Source of the DNA: a virus
Length of the DNA stretch: 25,768 bases
IMG/VR virus record: IMGVR_UViG_3300007345_000239
Coordinates: 1-25,768 of that record
Reading direction: 5' to 3' (one strand)
In this document: piece after piece, positions 3,785 through 25,295 of the stretch
How the letters are laid out: every line of letters begins with the position of its first letter
Numbering within the stretch: position 1 is the stretch's first letter
Notes under the pieces: generated by a model
Seen by the model: the letters and a program-made list of their open reading frames with translations, nothing else
What the model was told of the DNA's origin: nothing
The model's database searches: none
Translations under genes and position numbers: made by a program

Positions 3785-4804
3785 ATGCACGGAATTGAAA
3801 TCAACGCAGATGGAACAGCCCGGATGGCTTACGCAGGCGACATCCCTTGGCACAAACTCGGCACAAAACTCAACGGACTCGCAACCGCAGAACAAATGCT
3901 GGAAGCAGCCCAAGCCGACTTTGACGTCGTAACAACCAAAGTCGCGGCCGTAGACGACAACGGCCAGTTCATCCTGAACCCCGATGGGACACCAATCCTC
4001 ATCGACAACTCCCGAGCCACCGTACGCAGCAACCCAGACGGGACTTTCGACGGGCTCGCCACAGTCGGCACACGATACGTCCCCACTCAAAACCGGGAAG
4101 CACTCCAACGAGCACTCGACGTCGTGGGCGCATCCAAAGGAGAAGCAGTCGTAGAAACCTGCGGTGTTCTCCGAGACGGCAAAGAGTTCTTCGCCTCCAT
4201 CAACTTGGGTGGACTGGTCATCGACCCGAAAGGTGTCAACGACCGCATCGAACGCTACCTCCTCGTCCGCAACGGTCACGACGGAAAAGTCCCGATCACC
4301 TACGCAAACACGCCGATCCGGGCAGTCTGCCTCAACACCGTAATCATGGCGATGGACTCGGCGAAAAGCGTTTTTACTGCTCGTCACACCAGAAACCAAG
4401 ACACAGCGTTGGAACAGGCCGGCGAAGTTCTTGCGATCTCAACCGAATGGGCACGCAACTTCCAGCAAACCGCTGAACGGATGCTTCGGATCCCAGTCCC
4501 AGCAGGATCACGGCAGTTCGACAAGATTTTTGACAGCGTGTTCCCTGAGAAGTCGGACGCAACGAAGATCCAACGGGAAAATCGTGAGAATCTTCAGATG
4601 ACCGTCCGATCGCTGTACATCTCGAAGAAGAATGCTGGCGGCTACGGGTTCAACGGTTGGGCGGCGTACAACGCAATCGGCGAATACCTTGATCACCACC
4701 GCGAAGCCGGGGCTGAAGACAGGGCCGCTGCGTCAATGGATTACTACTCGTGGGTGACGAAAGCCAAAGCCCGTGCCCAAGACGCAGTCCTAACGCTTAC
4801 CTGA
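3785..4804 (+). CDS. DUF932 phage/plasmid-like protein
   Basis: A 339-residue protein matching the DUF932 / TIGR03299 phage/plasmid-like family. It opens with MHGIEINADGTARMAYAGD and the family's IPWHKLG segment, continues with RYVPTQNREAL, and has the GKVPITYANTPIRAVCLNT region that in this family reads 'n.hdG..a......RVVCxNT'. These proteins are common on phages and plasmids; their biochemical role is not established to my knowledge. The start follows GAGGGTCAC, a usable Shine-Dalgarno, and the gene lies just after the HTH gene. Confidence 0.88.
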   Translation: MHGIEINADGTARMAYAGDIPWHKLGTKLNGLATAEQMLEAAQADFDVVTTKVAAVDDNGQFILNPDGTPILIDNSRATVRSNPDGTFDGLATVGTRYVPTQNREALQRALDVVGASKGEAVVETCGVLRDGKEFFASINLGGLVIDPKGVNDRIERYLLVRNGHDGKVPITYANTPIRAVCLNTVIMAMDSAKSVFTARHTRNQDTALEQAGEVLAISTEWARNFQQTAERMLRIPVPAGSRQFDKIFDSVFPEKSDATKIQRENRENLQMTVRSLYISKKNAGGYGFNGWAAYNAIGEYLDHHREAGAEDRAAASMDYYSWVTKAKARAQDAVLTLT

Positions 4805-5834: not shown

Positions 5835-5863
5835 AATATACTACTTATATGTCTGGGACACAA
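5835..5863 (-). promoter_or_regulatory. AATAAG-family promoter (variant)
   Basis: On the minus strand: TTGTGT, a 17-base spacer with TATAAGTA in the shared position, then TATATT. The ATG at 5827 falls at about +8, so the message is leaderless or nearly so. Confidence 0.7.
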
Positions 5864-6048: not shown

Positions 6049-7944
6049 GTGAACCTGTGGCTAGACACCGACATGCTCCTTGTCGACACCCCTTACGTTC
6101 TCGAAGAAGTCACCGCCATCAAAAAGATTCGTGGCGCAAAATGGAACAAACGCTCGAAACTTTGGGAAATCCCAGTCGCCGAGGTACGGGCCGCCCGGGA
6201 CTTCATAAACCAGTACGGGTACGAGATGACAGAGGAAGTCGCTCTCATCACTTTGCCCGAACCACCCGCCGCAGCAGAACACATCATCCTTCGAGAAAAC
6301 TGGATTTGTATCAAGTTTCCGTACGAACGTGTGCGGATCCGCTCAGTCAAGCAGATCCCCGGAGTCACATGGTCGCCCGACAGCAAAGAATGGCTGGCAC
6401 CGATCACATCCGGTGATGCGGCAATCACCTTCGGAGAACGGTTCGACATCGAAATCTCCCCCGAAGTCCGAGACGCATACACCTCAACCACCGAAACCTC
6501 CAGCAGCCTGATCGAGAAGTCCCGCTCAACGGACGCCGAGGTCAACATCCCCGGATTCCAAGGCGAACTGTTGCCTTACCAGAAAGCCGGAGTCGAATAC
6601 ATCTCAACGGTCAAAAAAGGATTTATTGCCGACGAGATGGGGTTAGGTAAAACGATTCAAGCAATCGCAGCAGTCGAAGTCCAACACGCCTACCCCTGCG
6701 TCATCGTCTGTCCTCCATCGTTGATCCTCAACTGGAAGAAAGAGTGGAATCGTTGGCTGCCGCACCGGGACGTCCAGATTGTTGTGGACCGCAAAGAGTT
6801 CCCAGAGTTCAGCGAGGTGCTGGTTGTCGGTTACTCCAACATCCACCATTGGAAGGATCTGCTCAAAGGTCACAACGGGTACGTTTTTGATGAATCTCAC
6901 TACTGTAAGAGCCGTGACTCGCAGCGAACCAAAGCGGCGAAAGCAATCACGAAGGCTGCCGGGCCCGACGTCCCGGTAATCTTGCTTACGGGTACTCCTG
7001 TGACGAACCGGCCAGCCGAGTACGCACCGCAACTTCAGATCATCGGTCAGGTGGATGCGTTTGGCGGCGAATGGGGGTTTTACCGCAGATATTGTGACGC
7101 TTTCCGTGACAAGTGGGGACAATGGCATCTTGAGGGTGCGTCAAATCTAGAGGAACTGAACGAACGGCTTCGTTCCACTTGCTACATCCGTCGCACCAAA
7201 GATCAGGTGATGACTGAACTGCCTCCTGTTGTTCATGACCCGCTGCTCGTGGAAGTCCCGGCGGCCCAGATGAAGGAGTACCGCAAAGCCGAGCGAGATA
7301 TTGTCCAGTATCTTATTGACAGGGCTGTGGAAATCGCTGAAGAACTTGGGGAAAACCCGAAGTCGGCCGCTGTCAGAGCGCGTTTGAAAGCGGAGGCTAG
7401 TCAGCATCTCGTGCGAATTAGCATCTTGCGCAGATTAGCGGCGAAAGCAAAAATGCCTGCGATTGAGGAGTGGATCGAGGGCCGGCTCGCGGAGTCCCGG
7501 AAAGTTGTTGTTGCTGCCCACCACCGTGACATCGTGGATGCGCTTGCCGACAAATACGGCGGCTACAAGATTCAAGGTGACATGGAACTAGGGGATGTAG
7601 AGGATGCGAAAGAAGCGTTCCAAACCGACCCCGACGCAAAAGTCATAGTTTTGTCGATTCAGGCTGCGAAAACCGGGCACACGTTGACGGCATCGCAGGA
7701 CGTTTTATTTGTAGAACTCCCATGGACACCCGCCGACGTTGACCAAACGTACAGTCGCTGTCATCGAATCGGTCAAACAGGTTCGGTAACTGCGACTTAC
7801 ATGCTGCTCGACGGGACTATCGACGAGGAGATCTACGATCTGGTTGAAAGGAAGCGTCGGGTCGTGTCGCAGGCAACAGATGGTGGCCCTGATGTTGACG
7901 AAGAAGCCGATTTGTCACAACTTGTGTTGGGGTTCCTCGGCTAA
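6049..7944 (+). CDS. SNF2-family DNA helicase/translocase with HARP-like N-terminus
   Basis: An ATP-driven DNA translocase, 631 residues. The N-terminus has two similar modules, each with an I-x-G-x-x-W-x(4)-K-x-W core (about residues 27-43 and 103-119), resembling the HARP repeats of SMARCAL1-type annealing helicases. The SNF2 ATPase core follows: PYQKAGVEY (motif Q), DEMGLGKT at 195-202 (Walker A), DESH at 281-284 (motif II, Ser instead of the usual Ala), TGTP at 314-317, RRTKDQV, and HRIGQTG near residue 571 (motif VI). The likely role is fork remodelling or strand annealing during phage replication. The start is GTG with the -10 box TAGACT six bases upstream, so it is probably leaderless. 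The 3' end overlaps the convergent gene by 30 bases. Confidence 0.9.
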   Translation: MNLWLDTDMLLVDTPYVLEEVTAIKKIRGAKWNKRSKLWEIPVAEVRAARDFINQYGYEMTEEVALITLPEPPAAAEHIILRENWICIKFPYERVRIRSVKQIPGVTWSPDSKEWLAPITSGDAAITFGERFDIEISPEVRDAYTSTTETSSSLIEKSRSTDAEVNIPGFQGELLPYQKAGVEYISTVKKGFIADEMGLGKTIQAIAAVEVQHAYPCVIVCPPSLILNWKKEWNRWLPHRDVQIVVDRKEFPEFSEVLVVGYSNIHHWKDLLKGHNGYVFDESHYCKSRDSQRTKAAKAITKAAGPDVPVILLTGTPVTNRPAEYAPQLQIIGQVDAFGGEWGFYRRYCDAFRDKWGQWHLEGASNLEELNERLRSTCYIRRTKDQVMTELPPVVHDPLLVEVPAAQMKEYRKAERDIVQYLIDRAVEIAEELGENPKSAAVRARLKAEASQHLVRISILRRLAAKAKMPAIEEWIEGRLAESRKVVVAAHHRDIVDALADKYGGYKIQGDMELGDVEDAKEAFQTDPDAKVIVLSIQAAKTGHTLTASQDVLFVELPWTPADVDQTYSRCHRIGQTGSVTATYMLLDGTIDEEIYDLVERKRRVVSQATDGGPDVDEEADLSQLVLGFLG

Positions 7945-9788: not shown

Positions 9789-9852
9789 TTTTCCACAGAT
9801 TTATCAACAAGATGTGGATAAACTGGCCTCATGGGACACCCTCTTATCCACA
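9789..9852. other. DnaA-box cluster, candidate replication origin
   Basis: Within 64 bases lie two exact TTATCCACA boxes (9813-9821 on the minus strand and 9844-9852 on the plus strand) and two close variants, TTTTCCACA (9789-9797) and TTATCAACA (9801-9809). The stretch is AT-rich compared with its surroundings and lies between divergent genes, although it runs into the start of the plus-strand oxygenase gene. The boxes are seen directly; origin function is inferred. Confidence 0.5.
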
Positions 9853-10457
9853 CCCCACGCATCATCGAACCCGAAAGCGTCATCGAACTCCGAGCATTCG
9901 TCCGCGAACACGGGACTCCGAGCCCGCCGGCGGCAGCAGAAGAAGGAGAAATCAACGTTTTGCTTGCCCCAGACGAAGCACTCCACAACCTGATGTCCGA
10001 CCTCTCCGTCCACATCTGCCAACTCGCCGACAGCCTGTGGCTTGACGCTCACGTTGTGTGGCACGGCTCCATCCGAGAATGGCAACCCGGCGAATACGCC
10101 ACCAGCCACTTCGACTGCTACGACGTCAACGACGGAGCCCCGGTTTTGATGGACGGACTCCAGCAAAGGTATTGCGATTTATCTTGCGTCCTGTTTCTCT
10201 CCGACTCCGCAGGGGACGGCATACTTCAGTTCCCCGAACAGGGCGTGGACATCAAACCAGTCGCCGGTACAGCAGCCCTTTTCCCAGCAACAATCCCTCA
10301 CCAAGTGTCAACCGTTGAGAAAGAACGACTCACAATGGTGTTCTTCTTGTCACGGGCGAGAACTCTCGGGCTCACAGCCCCGATCCTCCCAGATGGCTGG
10401 CAGAACCAGTTGTACCACCCGTCTCGGGCAGAGTTTCTGGCTCAGACTTTAGGGTGA
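9831..10457 (+). CDS. Second 2-oxoglutarate/Fe(II)-dependent oxygenase
   Basis: A 208-residue probable dioxygenase. It has HFD at 93-95 as the first two iron ligands, the strand RYCDLSCVLFLSD, the G-rich turn GDGILQFPEQG, then VAGTAALFPATIPHQV with the distal ligand H157 and R166 for 2-oxoglutarate. It is clearly different in sequence from the oxygenase at 8250-8741 but has the same fold signature. The ATG at 9831 lies six bases after the -10 box TAAACT (9819-9824), so it is probably leaderless. That -10 box overlaps a DnaA box, so DnaA binding could affect expression. Substrate unknown. The 3' end overlaps the convergent gene by 16 bases. Confidence 0.85.
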   Translation: MGHPLIHTPRIIEPESVIELRAFVREHGTPSPPAAAEEGEINVLLAPDEALHNLMSDLSVHICQLADSLWLDAHVVWHGSIREWQPGEYATSHFDCYDVNDGAPVLMDGLQQRYCDLSCVLFLSDSAGDGILQFPEQGVDIKPVAGTAALFPATIPHQVSTVEKERLTMVFFLSRARTLGLTAPILPDGWQNQLYHPSRAEFLAQTLG

Positions 10458-12529: not shown

Positions 12530-12642
12530 AGGGCTGCTCCTCATCGAAAGGAGGTCCGAGCCCCGTTTCCCCAAGACTACAAAAGAGAAACGTTTCCCGT
12601 GTTGTTTGATGAGGCTACTGGCCACAGCCCTTACGCCTGAAG

Positions 12643-12715
12643 TTCCCCCCGTGGGACTCGAACCCACAACTCTCGGGTTAAAAGCCCGCTACTCTGCCAA
12701 TTGAGTTAGAGGGGA
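12643..12715 (-). tRNA. tRNA-Lys (anticodon TTT)
   Basis: A full cloverleaf reads on the minus strand. The acceptor stem is TCCCCTC with GGGGGGA (one T-G wobble). The D arm is ACTC/GAGT, the anticodon loop CTTTTAA, and the T arm GTGGG-TTCGAGT-CCCAC. The first anticodon-stem pair (27-43) is a G-A mismatch and the other four pair well. CCA is not encoded. It lies at the 3' end of a minus-strand operon, nine bases after a stop codon, so it may be processed from that transcript. Confidence 0.9.
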
Positions 12716-22404: not shown

Positions 22405-22423
22405 AGAAATTTTGCGAATCAGG

Positions 22424-22452
22424 TTGTTGCTACCCCGAATAAGCCTTACCCT
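22424..22452 (+). promoter_or_regulatory. AATAAG-family promoter of the AAA+/VWA operon
   Basis: TTGTTG, a 17-base spacer with AATAAGCC in the shared position, then TACCCT. The leader is about 30 bases, with GAAAGGACTGAG before the ATG at 22488. Confidence 0.83.
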
Positions 22453-22487
22453 TACCACTGTCATCAACTACAAACGAAAGGACTGAG

Positions 22488-23201
22488 ATGACAAACGTAA
22501 CCTACCCCGAATGCTGGAGCACCTTCCAGAAGGTCATCGACGCGGGCGTTGATCGCGTCATCCTCTACGGACCCCCAGGAACCGGCAAGACCTACGCTGG
22601 TCTCCACTACGGCAACGTCAACGCTGGCGCGTTCAGGCTCGTCTGCACCGAAGACATGACCAACATGGATGTCACCGGAGGCTTCATGCCTTCCGACAAC
22701 GGCTTCCAGTGGCTCACCGGCTCCGCGCTCAAAGCGTGGGAGGGTGACGGTCTCACCGGCGGTCGTCTCGTCGTCGACGAAATCGACAAGGCTGGTGGCG
22801 ACGTGTTCGCAACCTTGCTCTCCATGTTGGACTCCGAAGACTCCGCAGAGTGGGAGCATCCGGTCACCGGTCGCACCCACAAGCCGAAGACAGGGTTCTC
22901 AGCCGTCATGACGACGAACATCGAAGACATGAACGACCTTCCCCCAGCGTTGCTGGACAGGTTCCCAGTGCAGATTCGCATCGATCGTCCGCACCCTGAT
23001 GCTCTCGCTCGCCTTTCTCGCGACTTGTGGAGCGTCGCCAACAATCTCGCCGACGGCGGTGATCGTCGCGTCTCGCTCAGAGCATTCTTTGCATTCGACA
23101 ACCTCAGGAAGTCGCTTGGCACCGACGAAGCAGCGAAGGTGATCTTCCACCATCGCGCAGAGTCCATTCTTGACGCGATGAAGGTCGACGCGGTCTCATG
23201 A
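22488..23201 (+). CDS. MoxR-type AAA+ ATPase
   Basis: A 237-residue AAA+ ATPase of the MoxR/AAA_5 kind that would act as a chaperone-like motor on a VWA partner. Walker A is GPPGTGKT at about residues 28-35. Walker B is GRLVVDEIDKAG at about 92-103. Sensor 1 is SAVMTTN near 139-145. An arginine finger lies in PPALLDRFP, and a short helical lid follows. It has its own AATAAG promoter and overlaps the next gene (ATGA). The ATPase-VWA order matches MoxR-VWA and CobS-CobT-like pairs. Confidence 0.9.
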   Translation: MTNVTYPECWSTFQKVIDAGVDRVILYGPPGTGKTYAGLHYGNVNAGAFRLVCTEDMTNMDVTGGFMPSDNGFQWLTGSALKAWEGDGLTGGRLVVDEIDKAGGDVFATLLSMLDSEDSAEWEHPVTGRTHKPKTGFSAVMTTNIEDMNDLPPALLDRFPVQIRIDRPHPDALARLSRDLWSVANNLADGGDRRVSLRAFFAFDNLRKSLGTDEAAKVIFHHRAESILDAMKVDAVS

Positions 23202-24646
23202 GCATCGGAGTAGAACCCGAAGTTCTATCTCGCTACGACACGGAGCACGGTCGTTGGACAACGAAGGTCGTCCCCAACAAGAGGGGACTGCCGATGACCA
23301 ATCCGGTCGAAAAAGAGATGAGAGCACCGGACGGTGACGACCCATCCGCTCGCGCCACTCGCGCTCACGAGATGATGCACGCCAAAGTCTCCCCAGCCCA
23401 CGACATGCAGGCGTGGATAGACAGAGGCATCGCGTCGCACGAATCGCTGACGGTATGCGAGGAACTACGCGTCAACCTCTTGTGCTCCAAGGCAGGGTTC
23501 GACATGGATGCTCTCTCCGACGACGGCGAAACCGCTGACGGTGAAAGAGCAGCGATCACCGGCGACTGGGCATCCACGGTCAGGTTCGCGATCGCGGTCG
23601 CAGGCACTGGCTCCGCAAAGAAGTACCTGAACGGCGTTCGTCGCCACAACAGGGTGTGGGGCAAGGCTCTGTTGGACATCCAAAAGAGAGCCGTCAAAGA
23701 GATGACGAAGGCATGGAAGACAGGCACGCTTGCTTCCACCGAAGTGCATCCCGACACCGGTCTGTCACCGTTGGGTTTCAGGCACACCGAAATGATGGCC
23801 GAATGGCTTGACAGAATTTGTGGGATGACTCCACCCGACGAAGACGAAACCACCGACGACAAGTCCGAAAAGGGCGAAGACGACGGCGACTCGTCAGGCA
23901 AGGGTGTCAAAGCCCACGTTTCTGTCGAAACCGAAAAGCCGAAGAAACTCGGAGACTTCAAAGACGAATTGAAGGGTGTCAAGCCCTACGAATCGATGTC
24001 TCACGGCGACATCCCTCGCTGGGGAACGCTGGAATGGGAGCACATCCCTCTGGACGCGACCAGCACCGGCTCAATGTCGAAAAAGAGGACTCCGACGAAC
24101 GTCGGTCGCAACCCTCGTCGCATGCATCGGTACATGACCGACCCCCAGCGTCGCGTGTTCGACAAGACAACTCGCGGTAAGGGTGGCATCGTCGTCGTCG
24201 ACGTGTCCGGTTCCATGTCATGGAACATGGAGCAGGTTCAGACGATCGTCGAAAACGCTTCCGGAGCGACCGTCATGGCCTACTCGTGGTCTCGCGAAGG
24301 TGGACCGAACGCGTGGATTCTTGCGAAAAACGGCAAGATGGCTCGCGATATCTCGTCGGTCACAACCGCCGGTAACGGTGTCGACTTCCCTGCGCTCCAA
24401 TGGGCAGTGGAGAATCGTCGTCGCCATGAGCCGATCGTGTGGGTCACCGACGGCGGTGTCACCGGCGTTGGAGACGGATGGCACGCGGTTCTCGCGAAGC
24501 AGTGTCGCGAGTTCGCCGACAAGCACGGCATCGTGATCGTGTCGAACATGGAGAACGCGGTCAAAGCGTTCAAGCAGATGGCCAAAGGCAAGAAGCCCGA
24601 AGCCAGCATCCCATCCATGCTCTGGCCGTCAGCGTTCAGCGCCTAA
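23198..24646 (+). CDS. VWA-domain protein with an HExxH metallopeptidase-like N-terminus
   Basis: A 482-residue partner of the ATPase. The N-terminal part has HEMMH at 57-61 followed by VCEELRVN at 86-93, the arrangement of a zincin metallopeptidase (as in the putative metallopeptidase domain often paired with VWA). An acidic linker lies at about 210-240. The C-terminal VWA domain has the MIDAS motif D335-V-S337-G-S339 and a later WVTDGGVTG that supplies another metal-site Asp. It resembles CobT-like VWA proteins. With the MoxR ATPase it may remodel or cleave a phage or host target; the target is unknown. The coupled ATGA start makes the two proteins a likely complex. Confidence 0.87.
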   Translation: MSIGVEPEVLSRYDTEHGRWTTKVVPNKRGLPMTNPVEKEMRAPDGDDPSARATRAHEMMHAKVSPAHDMQAWIDRGIASHESLTVCEELRVNLLCSKAGFDMDALSDDGETADGERAAITGDWASTVRFAIAVAGTGSAKKYLNGVRRHNRVWGKALLDIQKRAVKEMTKAWKTGTLASTEVHPDTGLSPLGFRHTEMMAEWLDRICGMTPPDEDETTDDKSEKGEDDGDSSGKGVKAHVSVETEKPKKLGDFKDELKGVKPYESMSHGDIPRWGTLEWEHIPLDATSTGSMSKKRTPTNVGRNPRRMHRYMTDPQRRVFDKTTRGKGGIVVVDVSGSMSWNMEQVQTIVENASGATVMAYSWSREGGPNAWILAKNGKMARDISSVTTAGNGVDFPALQWAVENRRRHEPIVWVTDGGVTGVGDGWHAVLAKQCREFADKHGIVIVSNMENAVKAFKQMAKGKKPEASIPSMLWPSAFSA

Positions 24647-24658
24647 TGATCGCCCGAA

Positions 24659-24692
24659 GGGGAGCCGGTGTAGTCAGTCCTACCGGCTCCCC
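24659..24692. terminator. Bidirectional hairpin terminator
   Basis: A perfect 11-bp stem, GGGGAGCCGGT (24659-24669) with ACCGGCTCCCC (24682-24692), lies between the convergent genes ending at 24646 and 24680. It covers the stop codon of the minus-strand gene. Confidence 0.7.
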
Positions 24693-24893: not shown

Positions 24894-25295
24894 TCAGAAT
24901 GGGAAGTTGCCGACACCGACACGCTCCTCGACCCGATCAGCCACAATCTGGTGGATCCGCTGCCTCGACAAACCGACAGAATCAGCGATTTGTTGGAGCG
25001 ACTCGCCGGCCGCACGTCGAGCCATAATTCGAGAATTTCGCTCTTTGTTAGTTCGTGGGCCCGGCTTCAGCGGCCCCCACTGCCATCCGGGAACCTGTTC
25101 GAGGGCGGCCACCCGGTCTGCAGGAAGTTTGCCGGCCCGCTGCCGCTGACGGATGTAACCGACCCAAGCGCCAAGGCGGACTTCGCGGCCGTCAACGATC
25201 TCGATGTGCAACGCGGGAACATCGGGGCTGCCCACCCGCTGCGAGTACTGGACGAGCGCGGTCACGTACATGAGGAATCTGTCTGTGTTGTTCAT
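24894..25295 (-). CDS. Helicase-associated-domain and HTH protein
   Basis: A 133-residue protein. Residues 32-72 (EVRLGAWVGYIRQRQRAGK, then LPADRVAALEQVPGWQW) match the helicase-associated (HA) domain, a small DNA-binding helical unit. Residues about 94-126 hold a sigma-like HTH, ARRAAGESLQQIADSVGLS then RQRIHQIV. The protein is probably a DNA-binding regulator or replication accessory factor. The ATG at 25295 lies seven bases after the -10 box TATTGT (25303-25308 on the minus strand), so it is probably leaderless. No AATAAG element is present at its promoter, as would suit the regulator of the others. Confidence 0.82.
   Translation of the reverse strand: MNNTDRFLMYVTALVQYSQRVGSPDVPALHIEIVDGREVRLGAWVGYIRQRQRAGKLPADRVAALEQVPGWQWGPLKPGPRTNKERNSRIMARRAAGESLQQIADSVGLSRQRIHQIVADRVEERVGVGNFPF

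Follow-up and report, generated by a model that had tools for sequence, protein, structure and literature searches.

The two overlapping reading frames at positions 22,488 to 24,646 of IMG/VR virus record IMGVR_UViG_3300007345_000239 raise the question of what kind of molecular machine they encode and on what it might act. A first-pass annotation of the window (the whole 25,768-nucleotide stretch that we analysed, whose coordinates are used below) had proposed a MoxR-like ATPase coupled to a protein combining an HExxH motif with a VWA part. The coordinates of both frames proved exact: the ATPase gene (P1) and its partner (P2) overlap by 4 nt at 23198-23201, within the sequence ATGA. We therefore asked how the pair is organized and distributed, what its domains resemble, and which of several possible roles fits best.

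Organization and distribution of the gene pair

The pair and its immediate surroundings comprise the following features.

22422..22443, + strand: promoter-like element GGTTGT-N10-AATAAG, 12/12 match
22477..22482, + strand: ribosome-binding-site-like AAAGGA, by direct reading of the sequence
22488..23201, + strand: P1, MoxR/midasin-class AAA+ ATPase, 237 aa (Pfam AAA_5 at 8.6e-16; PDB profile)
23198..24646, + strand: P2, partner protein, 482 aa (HExxH domain, linker, basic segment, VWA)
24659..24692, + strand: 12-bp hairpin 3' of the P2 stop codon, possible terminator (RNA folding energy)
24894..25295, - strand: convergent gene with HA and HTH domains (Pfam HA, 1e-10)

The AATAAG promoter that had been suggested for the pair was borne out by the distribution of the longer motif. 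GGTTGT-N10-AATAAG was over-represented in the window, with 32 sites at three or fewer mismatches compared to 12.4 expected (0/100 shuffles). The perfect copy ends, at its 3' side, 44 bp upstream of the ATPase start, and the nearest relatives (L004, L005, L023, and L068) have copies at a similar place ahead of their ATPase gene. The short spacing of the motif is unlike that of a sigma-70 promoter, and a phage-specific polymerase or sigma factor may recognize it. Across the window, motif copies lie at 2248, 17065, 17736, 18561, 19483, 20542, 21598, 22149, and 22422 on the + strand and at 5844, 11585, 12288, 13446, 14611, 15231, 16516, and 16968 on the - strand; the latter series suggests that much of 11.5-17 kb may be transcribed leftward.

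Beyond the P2 stop codon, the hairpin region has a minimum free energy of -31 kcal/mol for 61 nt (z -3.8) and is not followed by a T run. The HA-HTH gene is convergent to the pair in 40 of 41 loci; it bounds the unit and is no part of the machine. A downstream gene on the + strand that seemed conserved (cluster c10) was discarded as the antisense shadow of this convergent gene. With its own promoter, a hairpin after the stop codon, and the convergent HA-HTH gene beyond, the pair is by layout a self-contained transcription unit.

A search of viral sequences with P1 returned 104 contigs, of which 80 were kept. Apart from one near-identical record (L003, 99.9% identical to the window over the shared 13.3 kb), the ATPases on these contigs were 61-73% identical to P1. 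A P2 homologue directly followed the ATPase in 79 of the 80, the exception (L078) being a contig that stops just past the ATPase; the viral P2 homologues were 38-55% identical to the window P2 in the non-redundant set. Given that many related records span 100-172 kb, the 25.8-kb window, although a whole IMG/VR record, probably covers just part of a large phage genome, and WhiB-type regulators nearby indicate actinobacterial hosts.

We also assessed the locus through a second search with the replication-initiation-like protein encoded downstream, counting only loci with at least 9 kb of upstream sequence. The pair was present in 41 of 44 eligible loci, 1.7-6.3 kb upstream of the replication-initiation-like gene, in a set whose query was built from pair-bearing loci and in which many contigs overlap those from the P1 search. 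On this count the pair belongs to the core of a large phage lineage and is situated near replication genes. Searches of the literature, incomplete in coverage, found no publication on this phage group or family.

Domains of P1 and P2

Within the two proteins, the following features could be placed.

22569..22592, + strand: Walker A GPPGTGKT, P1 residues 28-35 (G28, P29, G31, G33, K34, and T35 invariant, n=31)
22767..22781, + strand: Walker B, P1 residues 94-98 (D97 and E98 invariant, n=31)
23198..23839, + strand: probable minigluzincin-like N-terminal domain, P2 residues 1-214 (AlphaFold pLDDT 93.5; PDB fold class)
23366..23380, + strand: HEMMH, P2 residues 57-61 (invariant, n=69; inside helix 49-64)
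23459..23476, + strand: EELRVN, P2 residues 88-93 (E89, R91, and N93 invariant, n=69; helix 81-98)
23840..24007, + strand: variable acidic linker, P2 residues 215-270 (entropy; low pLDDT)
24068..24175, + strand: basic segment, candidate pore finger, P2 residues 291-326 (conservation, charge, position)
24200..24214, + strand: MIDAS motif DVSGS, P2 residues 335-339 (D335, S337, and S339 invariant)
24446..24457, + strand: second MIDAS motif TDGG, P2 residues 417-420 (D418 and G419 invariant)

P1 is a complete MoxR/midasin-class AAA+ ATPase with the motif set expected of an active enzyme: Walker A, Walker B, sensors, and an arginine finger. Its Pfam match to AAA_5 lies above the cut-off, while its bpMoxR score was 16.0 bits against a cut-off of 27, and in PDB profile searches midasin was its best solved relative (3.9e-24), with NorQ at 1.3e-5. 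In addition to the Walker motifs, P1 carries sensor-1 TTN144, Arg158, and Arg198, and its functional residues are invariant across 31 phage sequences.

P1 also matched PHROG 249 (‘porphyrin biosynthesis’) and, at a distance, cyanophage CobS, and the corresponding partner protein of phage DSL-LC01 is named ‘cobalamin biosynthesis protein’, labels that would make the pair a CobS/CobT-type cobaltochelatase acting in B12 synthesis. We regard such a function as extremely improbable. No match to CobT (PF06213, E<1) appeared in P2 or its family members, nor in the cultured-phage partner proteins checked, and CobN was found in 0 of 19 large relatives, although these records are possibly incomplete and a host CobN is possible. 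On the absent CobT match and the absent CobN we ruled the cobaltochelatase out; the B12 and porphyrin labels are, for the same reasons, probably wrong for this phage group. As argued below, phage genes so labelled here would be remodelling machines rather than metabolic genes.

The N-terminal domain of P2 was not recognized by sequence-family libraries (Pfam and others, searched with the window P2 and family members). Nevertheless, the HEMMH motif and the downstream Glu motif noticed by the first-pass annotation are among its most constrained parts. In a set of 69 phage and cell proteins, the cellular ones being 31-36% identical to the window P2, invariance is limited to 16 of the 214 N-domain positions, and H57, E58, H61, and E89 are among them (chance of all four falling there, p about 2e-5). 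E89 follows HExxH at a distance of 25-28 residues. H57, H61, and E89 are the presumed zinc ligands and E58 the presumed catalytic residue. In zincins, the Glu of HExxH serves as the catalytic base, not as a metal ligand; since E58 is as invariant as the presumed ligands, catalysis is favored over mere metal carriage.

In a whole-chain fold search against the PDB only the VWA stood out, so the N domain was folded alone. The predicted structure (AlphaFold, pLDDT 93.5) has three short strands, with HEMMH in the middle of helix 49-64 and E89 on the following helix, 81-98; the refuting outcome named in the first-pass annotation, HEMMH away from a zincin active-site helix, thus did not occur. The top class among solved folds was formed by selecase, abylysin, and jannalysin, all minigluzincin peptidases, with matches of about 50 residues at 3.2-4.4 A and E 1.6-6, none of them significant; their Foldseek probabilities were 0.13-0.47, compared to at most 0.07 for the other matches listed. 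A PDB sequence-profile search with the N-domain core returned only selecase, at E 0.5. We consider the N domain a probable, though unproven, minigluzincin-like zincin. Minigluzincins, to which Wss1/SPRTN are similar, differ from the P2 domain in that the latter has extra C-terminal helices, is joined to a VWA, and is served by a MoxR ATPase.

It could also be that the N domain is inactive, or a structural zinc domain, which docks the target without cleaving it. The N-terminal domain of NorD, a leverage point with no enzymatic function, offers a precedent for a pure remodeller of this kind, and so does a related pair (L290, on contig C30 of G171) that retains the ATPase, basic segment, and VWA while lacking HExxH. 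We counted L290 against a protease reading, as it implies that cleavage is dispensable in some such machines. The genome bin that contains L290 has another pair (L289), with HELGH and EEVRIN, and comparison of the two suggests a modular arrangement of remodelling core and zinc domain. However, E58 is invariant in the 69 sequences and HE..H in the nine partner proteins of cultured actinophages, and we judge pure remodelling unlikely for P2. The L290 contig, which matches at 6916 and again at 50775, a repeat 43.9 kb apart, is perhaps a phage or plasmid, circular and assembled past its own end.

The C-terminal part of P2 is a VWA domain with a MIDAS. Single-sequence Pfam left it below detection (E 0.24), while hhalign of P2 to the VWA of DUF2201 proteins gave a probability of 81-89%, and Foldseek with the full chain matched VWA domains including that of NorQ-bound NorD (9qh6). 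Together with the invariant DVSGS motif, these matches uphold the VWA assignment, including D335, that had been made from the letters alone. Between the zinc domain and the VWA, the linker at 215-270 has the highest entropy within P2 (2.38 bits) and the segment at 291-326 the lowest (0.93 bits). The latter has 11 K/R versus 2 D/E, lies directly before VWA strand 1, and is mostly of low pLDDT when P2 is modelled alone. In NorD, a finger joined to the MIDAS via a single strand enters the ATPase pore, and it has been proposed that ATP hydrolysis twists the VWA relative to the N-terminal domain, via the linker (PMC9976466, PMC13036017). By position and conservation, residues 291-326 fit this scheme, and they may enter the pore of P1 in a like manner.

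NorQ-NorD and CbbQ-CbbO likewise join a MoxR-class ATPase to a VWA partner with an N-terminal domain, linker, finger, and MIDAS (PMC13036017, PMC9976466). No protease domain is reported for NorD, whereas P2 bears an HExxH domain; moreover, our pair has no NOR or Rubisco context, and P1 is nearer in sequence to midasin than to NorQ. Midasin (Rea1/Mdn1) also is an AAA+ ring that acts with a MIDAS domain, but as one eukaryotic chain of 4900 residues rather than as two small proteins with a zinc domain.

Architecturally, P1/P2 are closest to MoxR + DUF2201 pairs. DUF2201 proteins (PF13203 ‘putative metallopeptidase’ and PF09967 VWA-like) similarly place HExxH before VWA in one protein, and a MoxR-type Walker A adjoined them on the same strand in seven of nine loci examined (five upstream, two downstream). 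In our reading, the acidic residue of their helix motif A-x-D-x-x-IN aligns with E89 of EELRVN; the third position is Asp there and Glu in P2, and the lengths and finger segment differ. By profile, P2 is not a DUF2201 member: hhalign of the N domain to DUF2201_N gave 0.7%, and PF13203 was unmatched at E<1 in 45 members.

The order HE..H, E-E-x-R-x-E, VWA recurs in proteins encoded by cultured phages of Gordonia and Microbacterium and by phage DSL-LC01. A profile comparison linked the N domain of these cultured actinophages to that of the window (p 3.6e-4 versus 0.45 for the control), while tblastn against cultured phages left P2 unmatched at E 10 and the cellular homologue unmatched at E 1. 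A P1-related AAA+ ATPase is adjacent or one gene off in DSL-LC01 and the Gordonia phages and lies elsewhere in the Pumpernickel genome. The cultured-phage HExxH-VWA proteins are larger (about 560-760 aa), as are the Gordonia ATPase genes. This related architecture in cultured Gordonia and Microbacterium phages makes the family testable in laboratory strains, examples being Gordonia phages Phendrix and Forza (on G. terrae 3612) and Microbacterium phage Zooman (on M. foliorum). The HExxH-VWA proteins of these cultured phages and of DSL-LC01 (L083, L084, L086, and L207-L212) carry ill-fitting labels (AAA-ATPase, cobalamin biosynthesis protein, hypothetical).

Chromosomal relatives and competing roles

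The pair also turned up in a scan of genomes, on bacterial contigs of which some are long (296 kb for L115, 282 kb for L093), and at every cellular locus the ATPase adjoins a P2 homologue. Record titles are mostly Acidimicrobiaceae or actinobacterium. Within the class of L115, Acidimicrobiia, the pair was present in 12 of 198 sampled genomes; a class search that started from L093 brought up mostly those genomes again, which suggests that Acidimicrobiia contains both cellular lineages. In a phylum-wide sample, the pair occurred in 6 of 396 genomes, all previously found in Acidimicrobiia. In the tree, phage proteins separate from cell proteins as two clades with 100% support, each on a long stem. 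The pair defines an unnamed two-gene family, core to widespread uncultured actinophages and shared with Acidimicrobiia chromosomes. Two bins titled Bifidobacterium breve (L091 and L092) hold pairs that hardly differ from those in bins of freshwater actinobacteria; both group with the Acidimicrobiia set, and the titles look wrong. The second cellular lineage has an extra VWA protein upstream of the pair (L092:7150-8355) and, downstream, a conserved 400-aa protein with no assigned family (L093:8282-9010).

On the chromosomes, the pair is usually followed by genes for a LysM protein, nrdR, a PIG-L-like protein (our own reading of that gene), and dinB, and in several loci lexA lies upstream. In Acidimicrobiia, the LysM gene is preceded by two LexA-type boxes in tandem (GAAC-N4-GTTC, spaced by about 25 bp; L096-L125, ~2.1 kb after the ATPase start, in nearly all loci reaching that far). 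Only 4 of 33 loci (L099, L102, L120, and L121) have an exact LexA box in the 140 bp that precede the ATPase, and in two of these (L099 and L102) a divergent lexA lies directly upstream of the ATPase. SOS control of the chromosomal pair did not find general support, as the tandem boxes precede LysM and not the pair.

These neighborhoods bear on whether the module belongs to an arms race. The first-pass annotation had raised an attack on the host, defence, or counter-defence, and MoxR-VWA ternary systems have indeed been proposed as conflict systems in multicellular bacteria (PMC7159879); the comparison class includes VMAP, iSTAND, FtsH, and beta-propeller components. Across the 41 phage loci, however, no effector gene recurred directly with the pair, and no third component was evident there. 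PADLOC models gave no match beyond the P-loop, with only 28 P-loop residues matching IetA, and we rejected a known anti-phage defence system on this ground. The locus is also core and near replication genes, and its chromosomal sister clade sits in a conserved housekeeping neighborhood. An anti-host, defence, or counter-defence module is accordingly very unlikely; a housekeeping function, either in replicating the phage or in maturing an enzyme, fits better than a variable arms-race gene.

Enzyme maturation would make the pair an activase for cofactor or metal insertion, as in NorQD/CbbQO, in which the ring and VWA open an enzyme and H57, H61, and E89 carry the metal. MoxR-VWA pairs of established function do act as activases (PMC13036017). 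The candidate target would be the phage's own adenosylcobalamin-dependent ribonucleotide reductase, a family matched in 17 of 19 large relatives, with both members checked (2/2) scoring above the curated NCBIfam cut-off of B12-dependent RTPR; the Acidimicrobiia pair, in turn, usually lies near nrdR. Set against this, phage records place the reductase at a great distance from the pair (e.g., 51 kb versus 142 kb in G311), metal carriage has no need of an invariant E58, and the pair was in only 12 of the 198 sampled Acidimicrobiia, among which nrdR is general. We regard an activase as possible but rather unlikely. A divergent ribonucleotide reductase was seen to be encoded in L279-L282 as well as in the 17 of 19 large related viral records.

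A tentative mechanism and neighboring genes

The reading that we favor, with a little under even confidence, is that P1 and P2 form an ATP-driven remodeller whose zinc domain clips the target. P1 would assemble as a hexameric ring, into whose pore the basic segment 291-326 of P2 would insert, as the NorD finger does in NorQ, while the MIDAS would hold on to an acidic peptide in the target. Hydrolysis of ATP could then twist the VWA head relative to the N-terminal domain, by way of the linker, and so open the target, which the minigluzincin-like zinc domain would clip. Given that the unit lies 1.7-6.3 kb upstream of the replication-initiation-like gene, the target is probably one of the phage or host proteins that act early in infection or in replicating DNA. 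Against this reading, characterised MoxR-VWA pairs are remodellers or metal-insertion chaperones and are not known as proteases.

The nearest functional parallel may be Wss1, which works with its AAA+ partner Cdc48 (PMC4559962), by analogy and with no kinship implied. In its strongest form, this parallel would make the module a minigluzincin protease powered by a MoxR ring, which extracts and cuts proteins at replicating DNA. The Acidimicrobiia pair does lie beside lexA, nrdR, and dinB, yet we hold this specific form to be doubtful. If the protease reading is true, the module couples a MoxR ring directly to proteolysis, and we know of no such coupling in any MoxR-VWA pair. Our verdict is that P1/P2 form a conserved core module and represent a new family of a known kind of machine, whose probable protease part is unusual.

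Several other genes were recognized in the window.

1545-2231, + strand: weak lysozyme-like protein
3785-4804, + strand: DUF932/TIGR03299 protein
6049-7944, + strand: SNF2-type helicase
9831-10457, + strand: 2OG-Fe(II) oxygenase
12642-12715, - strand: tRNA-Lys(ttt)

In relatives, a proteasome/HslV-like peptidase gene lies on the opposite strand, at least ~7 kb beyond the pair (L045:19644-20279, -). Of 41 loci, 19 have it at the equivalent position; some of the contigs end before that point.
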